This document shows positions 11,864 through 14,778 of a stretch of 64,000 bases of DNA, piece after piece. Source of the DNA: Hyphomicrobiales bacterium. GTDB taxonomy: Bacteria; Pseudomonadota; Alphaproteobacteria; Rhizobiales; NORP267. How positions within the stretch are numbered: position 1 is the stretch's first letter; every line of letters begins with the position of its first letter. Location of the stretch: NCBI GenBank assembly GCA_021775875.1, contig JAJFHA010000020.1, positions 89,544 through 153,543 on the forward strand, written 5' to 3'. Under the pieces are notes generated by a model. The model saw only the letters and a program-made list of their open reading frames with translations, ran no database searches and was not told the DNA's origin. The position numbers and the translations under genes were made by a program.

Positions 11864-12277
11864 ATGGCAGCTCAAAAAGGCAAGGATCTTTTGCTGAAAG
11901 TTGATTCCGACGGCGTCGGGACGTTCACCACAATAGCGGGCTTGCGCGCCCGCTCAATCTCGTTCAACGCCGAAAGCGTCGATATCACCCACGCCGAATC
12001 CGCCGGCCAATGGCGCGAATTGCTCGCAGGCGCGGGAATCCGCCGCGCCGCGCTGTCCGGTGCCGGCATCTTCCGCGACCAGGCATCGGACGAGATTGCA
12101 CGAAGTTATTTCTTCAACGGAACCATCCGCGACTGGCAAATCATCATCCCAGATTTTGGCACAATGACCGGCGCTTTTCAGATAGCAGCCCTCGAATTCT
12201 CCGGCCAGCATGACGGCGAAGTGGGTTTCGATCTAGCCTTGGAATCGGCGGGGGAAATTACGTTTGTGGGTGTGTGA
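11864..12277 (+). CDS. Major tail (tube) protein (GTA g9-like)
   Basis: A 137-residue tail-tube subunit of the TP901-1/GTA type, with MAAQKGKDLLLKVDS at the N-terminus, the SVDITHAESAGQWRELL segment at about 44-60, and the late beta-strand region GEVGFDLALESAGEITF. GGAGG lies ten bases upstream of the ATG. It is the last gene before a sharp drop in GC content; the adjoining DNA is described separately. Confidence 0.92.
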   Translation: MAAQKGKDLLLKVDSDGVGTFTTIAGLRARSISFNAESVDITHAESAGQWRELLAGAGIRRAALSGAGIFRDQASDEIARSYFFNGTIRDWQIIIPDFGTMTGAFQIAALEFSGQHDGEVGFDLALESAGEITFVGV

Positions 12278-12340
12278 TAATATTAGCTAGTTGATTGTGT
12301 TTTAGGAAATAGCCAAAGCTCTACAAAACTTTGTAACGAT

Positions 12341-12355
12341 GTTCATTTTTTGTTC
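12341..12355 (+). promoter_or_regulatory. Candidate LexA (SOS) box, GTTC-N7-GTTC
   Basis: GTTC at 12341-12344 and GTTC at 12352-12355 are separated by exactly seven bases, matching the direct-repeat SOS box of alphaproteobacterial LexA. It would link the downstream genes to DNA damage. A match of eight fixed bases can occur by chance about once per strand in a window of this size, so location rather than rarity is the argument. Confidence 0.5.
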
Positions 12356-12434
12356 TCTGTTGCCGCAATGTAACGCCCGATTCACATTGTTGACAACAAG
12401 TTCATTTTGTGACTTCCAAAAAAAATTGATCTTG

Positions 12435-12449
12435 TTAAGATGGCCTTAA
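12435..12449. promoter_or_regulatory. Candidate CtrA-binding site, TTAA-N7-TTAA
   Basis: TTAA at 12435-12438 and 12446-12449 flank exactly seven bases, matching the full CtrA consensus of alphaproteobacteria. CtrA influences GTA expression in Rhodobacter capsulatus. The site lies about 180 bp upstream of the 74-residue gene and 80 bp after the candidate LexA box. AT-rich DNA raises the chance of a random match. Confidence 0.5.
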
Positions 12450-12628
12450 GGGATAAGAGGTGAGAATCTATTGACTTTGAGATGATTTTATGTTTGTGAC
12501 GCTGCCTTGATGTCGCCATTAGTTGTCATTATATGATTTGTCAATGGATATCTTAGAACACAATTTTTTAGCTCAATTTAATGCGAATATGCGCGTTTTT
12601 TGGGTCCAACAATGAAAGGAGAGGTATT

Positions 12629-12853
12629 ATGTCAGTGGAACTTGATCGCCTTAAAGTCAGATTTGATGGCCTCTTCAATGAAGATGGTCTTACTAATATA
12701 AAGTTCTTTATTGACCGTCGGCCTGAAATAACCGGTGCAGAATTTGCATCTGAGTTAAACAAAATTCAGGATACAATTGCTGCCGGGGGTATAAGCCCGA
12801 TAGAAAGTATAGACAAAGACGCAAAAACTCGTAGATTTGACGAAGCCTTTTAG
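12629..12853 (+). CDS. Small hypothetical moron protein
   Basis: A 74-residue acidic protein beginning MSVELDRLKVRF. ATG 12629 is preferred over an upstream frame start at 12581 because AAAGGAGAGG lies directly before it. I do not recognise the family; there is no signal peptide, membrane segment or cysteine. Codon use and GC are lower than in the flanking tail genes, so the gene appears to have been acquired with its regulatory region. It is followed 23 bp after its stop by an intrinsic terminator. Confidence 0.7.
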   Translation: MSVELDRLKVRFDGLFNEDGLTNIKFFIDRRPEITGAEFASELNKIQDTIAAGGISPIESIDKDAKTRRFDEAF

Positions 12854-12876
12854 CCGAATCAAATTTCAACTTGGAG

Positions 12877-12901
12877 AAGGGGGCTTTTGCCCTCTTTTTT
12901 T
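12877..12901 (+). terminator. Intrinsic terminator after 74-residue moron gene
   Basis: Left arm AAGGGGGC (12877-12884), loop TTTT, right arm GCCCTCTT (12889-12896; one G-T pair), then a run of seven T ending at 12901. It is a textbook rho-independent terminator in the middle of the tail module and overlaps the start region of the next gene. Confidence 0.8.
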
Positions 12902-13537
12902 ATGTCTTATTTCAAATATGTCGATGCGCTACTGCGCAAGTATCACAAAGAGCACGATATCACGCGAGTTGAAATTAGCGTTGATAAGCTAAGGCCATTT
13001 TTTGAAGAAATGGGATATGTGGACAAGATTTTATGGGAAAAATTCGATTTCAATTCCCGAATCATACTTGCCCAAATAAAAACTTATGAAGCGCAAATGG
13101 GTGCTTATAAAGATATTGGGACATATGCCCGAATCCAAATTTCAAGCGGCCAAAATTATTGCTGGAAACGTTTTATTTTATGTAAGGAAATGTATCACTG
13201 TATTTTGGATGAGGAACAAGAAAACCGCATTACCGACACCTCCTCTCTTTTAAAATTAACAGATTATTTTACTAACAGTTTTTTGGATAGAATTGCAGAT
13301 GAAAATGGTACATTTAAACCATTCGTTACCGAAGAAGACGCAGAAGTGATGGCGCTAGAAACGTTGTTTCCAATGGAATTGAGACGTTCGTTCTGCGATG
13401 ATCTCGATGATGGAAAAATAACCGCGTATCAGTTGGCTTTAAGATTCAGAATCCCAGAAGTGTATGTTCAGACTGCTATGGTTGATTCATACTATTCTGC
13501 CGTTTCTCGTGGACGAGACCTCATCAATACCGATTAA
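12902..13537 (+). CDS. Degenerate ImmA/IrrE-like protein (first HExxH histidine lost)
   Basis: A 211-residue AT-rich gene. The central segment KRFILCKEMYHCILD lines up with the RFTLAHELGH helix of ImmA/IrrE zinc peptidases, and a later TEEDAEVMALETLFPMELRR segment lines up with the usual EANAFAAELLMP region, followed by a helix-turn-helix-like LALRFRIPEVYVQ. The first metal-binding His is Lys here (KEMYH), so peptidase activity is doubtful. ATG 12902 has no good ribosome-binding site; a TTG at 12887 with GGAGAAGG upstream is an alternative, but it lies inside the terminator hairpin. The assignment is by pattern only. Confidence 0.6.
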   Translation: MSYFKYVDALLRKYHKEHDITRVEISVDKLRPFFEEMGYVDKILWEKFDFNSRIILAQIKTYEAQMGAYKDIGTYARIQISSGQNYCWKRFILCKEMYHCILDEEQENRITDTSSLLKLTDYFTNSFLDRIADENGTFKPFVTEEDAEVMALETLFPMELRRSFCDDLDDGKITAYQLALRFRIPEVYVQTAMVDSYYSAVSRGRDLINTD

Positions 13538-13606
13538 AAATAGTGGTTGCCTGACCTGTGTTGATTTGGCGCGCCTACCGTGTATCTAACCCCCGGACCT
13601 CAAAAC

Positions 13607-13972
13607 ATGATCAACCTCCCAAATCCCGTGCGCGGCGAGATCGCTGCCACGCTGGACGGCGATCCTTATTGCCTGTGCCTGACGTTAGGCGCGCTGGCAG
13701 AACTTGAAGGCGTGTTCGCTGCTGATGACCTGATGGCGCTTGCCGTTCGGTTTGAGAATGGGCGGATGAAATCATCCGAGGCGATTGCGGTGATCGGGGC
13801 GGGGCTGCGGGCTTGTGGCAATGAGATCAGTAACGAAGATGTCGCCGGGATGCGTGTTGAAGGCGGCGCGGCGGGGTTTGTCTCAATCGTCGCCCGGCTG
13901 CTGACGGCAACATTTTCCAGCGCCGTTGAGCCATCGGACGCCGCGCCGGAGGCGCGTTCGCCGGGAAAGTAA
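13607..13972 (+). CDS. Tail assembly chaperone, short form (GTA g10-like, G-like)
   Basis: A 121-residue protein of the GTA gp10 family, with the typical LTLGALAELEGVF and LMALAVRFENGRMKS segments and a GAGLRACG helix. Such chaperones coat the tape measure during tail assembly. ATG 13607 gives the usual short N-terminus; a GTG at 13580 is also in frame. The gene ends G GGA AAG TAA, a classical -1 slippery heptamer placed directly before the stop, and the -1 frame continues as the second chaperone. Confidence 0.88.
   Translation: MINLPNPVRGEIAATLDGDPYCLCLTLGALAELEGVFAADDLMALAVRFENGRMKSSEAIAVIGAGLRACGNEISNEDVAGMRVEGGAAGFVSIVARLLTATFSSAVEPSDAAPEARSPGK
13963..13969 (+). other. Programmed -1 ribosomal frameshift site (GGGAAAG)
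   Basis: In the g10-like frame the heptamer reads G GGA AAG, i.e. X XXY YYZ, followed immediately by TAA. The same heptamer drives the lambda G/GT tail-chaperone frameshift. Slipping by one base enters the open frame that encodes the g10.1-like chaperone. No strong downstream pseudoknot is evident by eye. Confidence 0.75.
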
Positions 13973-14178
13973 CTGCCAAATCTGAACAAGCTTCCACCAT
14001 ATCCTGGGCCGAGGTGATGGCCTTCGGGTTTGCTGAACTTGGCCTGTCGTCTGCTGATCTTTGGGCCATGACGCCGCGCGAATTAGCGGCAGCGGCGGGC
14101 TATGGAACTGGCGTCGGGGTCCGGCTGGAGCTAAGCGGATTACAAAACCTAATGGCCCGGTATCCGGACCAAGCCTGA
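13969..14178 (+). CDS. Second tail chaperone domain (g10.1-like), probably made as a -1 frameshift fusion
   Basis: This frame adds 69 residues after the slippery site, giving a predicted 190-residue fusion with the g10-like protein. Its conserved parts, SWAEVMAFGFAELGL, LWAMTPREL and LQNLMARYP, match the small tail-assembly chaperone found after g10 in GTAs. The frame is open back to 13930 but has no ATG, GTG or TTG until GTG 14014/ATG 14017, which lie inside the conserved region and lack a good ribosome-binding site. This favours translation by frameshifting, though a separate short product of about 53 residues from 14017 cannot be excluded. Confidence 0.8.
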   Translation, partial: VTAKSEQASTISWAEVMAFGFAELGLSSADLWAMTPRELAAAAGYGTGVGVRLELSGLQNLMARYPDQA

Positions 14179-14196: not shown

Positions 14197-14778
14197 ATGC
14201 AATTTGATGAAATGATAAATGTTGGCGTCAACGCCGACACGACACAATTTCGTGCGGAACTTGGCAGCCTCGAAGGGCTCGCCAGTGATTTCGGACGGTC
14301 CATGACCAATGCGCTTAAAAGCGCGGCGACCAACGGGCGCAGTTTCAAATCTGTGCTGCAATCGCTTGGCCAAAGCCTCTCCAGCCTGGCCCTGAACGCC
14401 GCGTTAAAACCGTTGCAGGACAGCCTATCCAGCGGCATCGGGTCGCTGTTTGGTAGCCTGTTCCCTTTTGCCAAAGGTGGTGTGGTTGGCGCGCCGATGC
14501 CGACACCATTTGCCAATGGCGGCATTGTCGCCAGCCCGACTTTGTTCCCAATGGGAAATCGTGGCACCGGATTGGCGGGTGAAGCCGGGCCGGAAGCCAT
14601 TTTGCCCCTGTCGCGTGGCAGCGACGGCCGGTTGGGCGTGCGCACGTCCGGGCAGGGCGGCGCGATCAATATCAATTTCAACGTGACCGCAACCGATGCT
14701 GAAAGTTTCCGCCGCTCGGAAACTCAAGTTGCGGCGATGGTCCACCGCGCCGTGTCGCGCGGCCAGCGAAATCTTTGA
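14197..14778 (+). CDS. Short tail tape-measure protein (GTA g11-like)
   Basis: A 193-residue protein of the GTA tape-measure type. It has an N-terminal helical part, a glycine-rich middle with FAKGGVVGAPMPTPFANGG, and the AGEAGPEAILPLSRG motif shared by GTA g11 and phage tape measures. Tape length sets tail length, so this short protein implies a short siphovirus-type tail, as in the Rhodobacter GTA. The gene follows the chaperone frame by 18 bp. Confidence 0.88.
   Translation: MQFDEMINVGVNADTTQFRAELGSLEGLASDFGRSMTNALKSAATNGRSFKSVLQSLGQSLSSLALNAALKPLQDSLSSGIGSLFGSLFPFAKGGVVGAPMPTPFANGGIVASPTLFPMGNRGTGLAGEAGPEAILPLSRGSDGRLGVRTSGQGGAININFNVTATDAESFRRSETQVAAMVHRAVSRGQRNL

Follow-up and report, generated by a model that had tools for sequence, protein, structure and literature searches.

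RcGTA-like gene transfer agents (GTAs) are virus-derived gene-transfer particles found in many soil and water bacteria, RcGTA being the best studied of them. In Escherichia coli, the dnaX gene undergoes an SD-stimulated -1 frameshift, the SD-like element standing some 10 nt 5' of a heptamer whose last three bases are AAG. In lambda, the G/GT tail assembly chaperone, encoded between the tail tube and tape measure genes, acquires a second domain as a fusion through a -1 shift on GGGAAAG, at a ratio of about 30:1 (PMC5009743). A programmed frameshift in the tail chaperone has also been described in R. capsulatus phages (PMC8601537); the kind of frameshift is the same as that proposed here and the host is related, but these are phages and not GTA clusters, and they are likened by description only. 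The principle of a stimulator resembling a ribosome binding site has been described as well (PMC10885494). In RcGTA, the homologous genes g10 and g10.5 occupy the same place in the cluster and are treated as two chaperones, tail chaperones 1 and 2, with frameshifting unmentioned (PMC11409702). The activity of a rhizobial tailocin was lowered or lost on deletion of certain genes, a GTA-gp10 gene being one of them (PMC10811719), and the +1 shift proposed in the hydrolase of a Wolbachia element concerns a different gene (PMC10299305). A search of open-licence papers on gene transfer agents and frameshifting brought up no account of such a shift in GTA tail chaperones, an absence which is not proof, and a preliminary description of the present sequence likewise gave it as not known to be described for gene transfer agents. 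The mechanism is thus already known from phages, and what is added here is its distribution, an SD-like element and the contrast with RcGTA.

The window under analysis is a stretch of 64,000 nt from a Hyphomicrobiales bacterium (contig JAJFHA010000020.1, positions 89,544 to 153,543 of the forward strand). Its genes follow the head-tail order of RcGTA (terminase, portal, protease, capsid, connector, tail tube, chaperones) and further include DUF2460, a hub protein, NlpC/P60 and g15, which carries GTA_TIM (PF13547, E 9e-148) and Rcc01698_C domains. This gene content supports an RcGTA-like gene transfer agent cluster, in line with the preliminary description. The g9 tail tube protein (11864..12277, + strand; PF06199) matches Rcc01691 of RcGTA (E 2.3e-48), and its named relatives are mostly Hyphomicrobiales. 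It is followed by an insert, by g10 and g10.1, and by a gene at the g11 position (14197..14778, + strand; 193 aa) which returned no Pfam family above cut-off and, judging from position and length alone, probably encodes the tape measure protein. The chaperone pair lies, as in lambda G/GT, between the tail tube and tape-measure positions. The g10-like gene (13607..13972, + strand) encodes 121 aa from ATG 13607, or 130 aa if the ORF 13580-13972 is begun at GTG 13580, and belongs to PF11836 (Phage_TAC_11, E 2.2e-26). Its predicted model (pLDDT 85.5) resembles predicted proteins of phages that bear the name tail assembly chaperone (probability 1.0, TM about 0.6, E 0.0075-0.03), and a fold search against solved structures in the PDB gave no match (best E 3.6); the models lend moderate support to a tail assembly chaperone fold.

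The g10 frame ends in CCG GGA AAG TAA, where the heptamer G GGA AAG (13963..13969, + strand), a candidate slippery site in the X XXY YYZ register of that frame, abuts the TAA stop (13970..13972, + strand). The -1 frame is open over 13930..14178 (+ strand, stop TGA 14176-14178) and encodes the TAC_6 domain of the g10.1-like chaperone at about 14002..14172 (+ strand; PF09550 Phage_TAC_6, E 1.7e-15). No ATG, GTG or TTG occurs in this frame 5' of the domain, the earliest GTG and ATG (14014 and 14017) being located within it, with GAGG merely 0-2 nt away. A fusion read from ATG 13607 and using the -1 frame from GTA 13969 on would comprise 190 aa (121 + 69), with TAC_6 as its C-terminal part; its predicted junction, SPGK|VTAK, is an exact trypsin cleavage point, and the predicted spanning peptide for Glu-C is ARSPGKVTAKSE. 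The preliminary description had pointed to the same heptamer and stop (13963-13972), to the frame open from 13930, to first starts lying in the conserved region with a poor ribosome binding site and to a 190-residue fusion, all of which were recovered. Absent from it was an SD-like GGAGG (13948..13952, + strand), a probable frameshift stimulator placed 10 nt 5' of the heptamer. The arrangement GGAGG-N10-GGGAAAG-stop is identical in two loci of the same genus (L022 and L025), whose neighbouring codons differ. The junction alignment which the preliminary description proposed as a check was run, and with the heptamer conserved in these close relatives the outcome named as contrary to the signal, its non-conservation, did not arise. 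Sequencing error was ruled out as the same arrangement was found in many genomes, and transcriptional slippage is judged unlikely for GGGAAAG, a motif with no long homopolymer.

On the comparison of sequences presented below, it is highly probable that this RcGTA-like cluster carries, at the heptamer, a programmed -1 ribosomal frameshift signal of the lambda G/GT kind. The bulk of the ribosomes would end at TAA 13970 and release gp10 of 121 aa, while a minority would move back by one base on G GGA AAG, tRNA-Gly passing from GGA to GGG and tRNA-Lys(UUU) from AAG to AAA, and would read on through GTA ACT GCC into a minor gp10-gp10.1 fusion of 190 aa. Ten nt ahead of the heptamer, GGAGG probably base-pairs with the 3' end of the 16S rRNA and so drives the ribosome backwards, as happens in dnaX. 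If gpG/gpGT of lambda is a guide, the tape-measure protein would be coated by gp10, and recruitment of the tail tube protein gp9 would fall to the fusion. A family search, supplemented with stretches of the genome, yielded tRNA genes for Lys (TTT, CTT), Gly (TCC, CCC, GCC) and Pro (TGG, GGG, CGG), including the tRNA-Gly(TCC) and tRNA-Lys(TTT) which the slip requires. Since AAG is also decoded by tRNA-Lys(CTT), for which slippage to AAA should be poor, shifting may happen infrequently, but with a ratio like that of lambda a low level of slippage would be enough.

Between g9 and g10, the window contains an AT-rich insert (12281-13560, GC about 37% vs 57%), with two ORFs (12629-12853 and 12887-13537) for which no match was found in Pfam or PADLOC, and with a terminator-like hairpin (12873-12902, + strand) which could cut the GTA operon. 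A different insert occupies the same place in L022 (L022:470-1200) and resembles, as judged by eye, a toxin-antitoxin pair encoded on the other strand, and in L025 g9 and g10 adjoin without an insert; the gap looks like an insertion hot spot. Given the insert and its hairpin, the signal might be an inherited one in a cluster that is silent or decaying in this genome. We regard this as unlikely, since the ORFs g1 to g15 are all intact and the signal is unchanged with respect to L022, with its other insert, and L025, with none; in any case, a silent cluster would leave the frameshift reading of the site unaffected.

The survey of g10/g10.1 junctions covered loci with PF11836 or g9 sampled from the order of the window, its class and the R. 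capsulatus family, and drew also on 80 named genome contigs; g10 and TAC_6 were positioned by profiles built for this analysis, and the known lambda site was recovered by the same scan. Among 265 unique junctions, TAC_6 is in the -1 frame of g10 in 232, in the +1 frame in 27 and in the 0 frame in 6, and junctions that are start-less, as in the window, are nearly all in the -1 frame (97 vs 3). An in-register X XXY YYZ heptamer is present in 85 of these 97, vs 26.8 expected from codon shuffles, and the other two registers hold 6 each. The enrichment is found in the subset with a stop 5' of the TAC domain (44/51 vs 12.0 expected), and the rate of heptamers per codon in the start-less -1 junctions is 0.062 in the overlap vs 0.0013 in the g10 domain. 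It was replicated in unseen viral contigs of IMG/VR (75 loci), where 39 of 45 start-less junctions carry a heptamer vs 8.0 expected. Many sampled loci are related and z values consequently overstate independence, the safer figure being one vote per family, which gives heptamer with:without counts of 14:4 for start-less and 0:14 for start junctions (Fisher 7e-6); a tree-based test of independent pairs on supported branches found 9 pairs only and was not significant (median p 0.5), being underpowered.

These counts bear on the possibility that gp10.1 is made separately from GTG 14014 or ATG 14017, coupled to g10 termination, the heptamer being incidental. In-frame codons exist at those positions, and RcGTA and many relatives do start the second gene at a codon overlapping the g10 stop. 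Such junctions (ATGA, GTGA) have a short g10 tail (median 6 residues) and are usually without a heptamer, and the start-less type combines a heptamer with a longer tail (median 23 residues). Starting at 14014 or 14017 would drop the first Trp of the conserved domain, with an SD spacing of 0-2 nt; GGAGG is at least 62 nt from either codon and is followed by no in-frame start, and an incidental heptamer does not account for an enrichment among start-less junctions that is far beyond chance, register-specific and replicated. A separate start is accordingly improbable. Where ATG or GTG does occur anywhere before the domain, a heptamer is present in 26 of 112 junctions vs 12.5 expected, and, as 11 of these 26 are AAACCCT, the start may in some of them be incidental to a frameshift site. 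An internal ATG is also the start annotated for g10.1 in MW091529.1 (L286:5336-5563), a 52-aa hypothetical protein beginning about 70 nt past g10. The junction there is AAACCCT|TGA and the annotated start misses the beginning of the TAC_6 domain, a faulty annotation which the frameshift reading would explain. The search for annotated phage or plasmid relatives returned three phage records and one Shinella record, the latter carrying no annotation at this place.

The heptamer is absent from 12 of the 97 start-less -1 junctions (L052, L092, L116, L142, L219, L231, L260, L042, L050, L131, L134 and L140), where slippage on other motifs or initiation at non-standard codons may take place. In L035, AAACCCT lies near the end of g10, but TAC_6 falls in the +1 frame and lacks a start codon; this locus would need a -2 shift, or holds a sequence error.

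Over the set, SD-like 4-mers are enriched 7-20 nt 5' of the heptamer and peak at 10-11 nt (38 seen vs about 9 expected), and anti-SD pairing gives z = -5.3, -9.1 and -4.2 for the three heptamer classes. The IMG/VR replicate agrees, with 83 such 4-mers vs 22.5 expected at 7-20 nt and no enrichment at 0-6 nt (10 vs 11.4). With GGAGG-like elements conserved 5' of the junction, one might take GGAGG for the ribosome binding site of a gp10.1 begun at a non-standard codon soon after it, but the -1 codons 5-15 nt past GGAGG are GCC, GGG and AAA in the window, and AAA CCC or CCC TTT in the other classes, none a near-cognate start, and the register-specific heptamer would be left unexplained, making this account very improbable. 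Turning to the other side of the site, a search for simple downstream stem-loops gave chance-level values in the window (z -0.61, +0.82 and -0.84), and over the set class means of -0.55 to -1.04 vs -0.38 in start-type controls, weak at best.

The three main heptamers are GGGAAAG, found in the genus of the window and several other families, AAACCCT, which is widespread and includes Rhizobium relatives, and CCCTTTC, found in Hyphomicrobium relatives and also beyond the order of the window. Codon choice at these sites is constrained. Of 21 Gly-Lys pairs in start-less g10 tails, 17 are written GGA AAG, although GGA accounts for just 9.5% of all codons for Gly; 27 of 35 Asn-Pro pairs are AAC CCT, and CCT has a 0% share among the Pro codons that g10 domains of the AAACCCT class contain. 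PFPW opens with the Pro codon CCC in 39 of the 40 junctions which g10 overlaps vs 27 of the 62 which it does not, although the coding of PFPW in the -1 frame partly dictates the bases of CCCTTTC.

The window shares with lambda G/GT the heptamer, the -1 shift proposed, the place of the chaperone gene and a predicted fusion with a second domain, and differs in its sequence families (PF11836/PF09550), in the short tape measure gene (193 aa), in a heptamer that abuts the stop where that of lambda starts 22 nt before it, and in GGAGG at 10 nt, lambda having no SD-like element at that spacing. The spacing of the SD-like element and the AAG ending of the heptamer recall dnaX; the window has no convincing downstream hairpin, and gene and purpose are others. 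RcGTA places its second gene in the -1 frame as well, but its junction (L196) reads GGA TCG|TGA, with a short g10 tail, a GTG overlapping the stop (GTGA) and no heptamer. The genome in question, G976, was taken as R. capsulatus as its tail tube protein equals the solved Rcc01691 over 136 identical residues.

Beyond this locus, the lambda-type reading of the preliminary description is supported by the conservation of the signal, with the refinement that the signal is not universal. It is kept in the genus of the window and, with other heptamers, turns up again in many families of its order and some of other orders; start/stop overlaps take its place in Rhodobacteraceae and several families of the order, and none of the junctions examined in the R. 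capsulatus family has a heptamer. A tree of junction types needs 24 changes of type and has weak branch support. Tentatively, and at somewhat less than even confidence, we propose that across much of Hyphomicrobiales and in certain families outside that order selection makes RcGTA-like clusters hold the ratio of chaperone to fusion by SD-stimulated -1 frameshifting, that the slippery site switches repeatedly among GGGAAAG, CCCTTTC and A AAC CCT, the last of these being unconventional, and that the start/stop coupling of Rhodobacteraceae RcGTA is a derived exception.

If this is true, A AAC CCT would count as a naturally occurring slippery site in which Y = C, departing from the usual A/U rule. 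Its recurrent class offers a compact natural set for examining the way in which -1 slippage is driven by an upstream SD-like element. The frameshift reading indicates that RcGTA-like clusters outside Rhodobacteraceae carry an expression control absent from RcGTA, which is therefore not a full stand-in for them. Moreover, constraint on a recoding signal suggests that tails are, or recently were, still built, which bears on the question of GTA maintenance versus decay.
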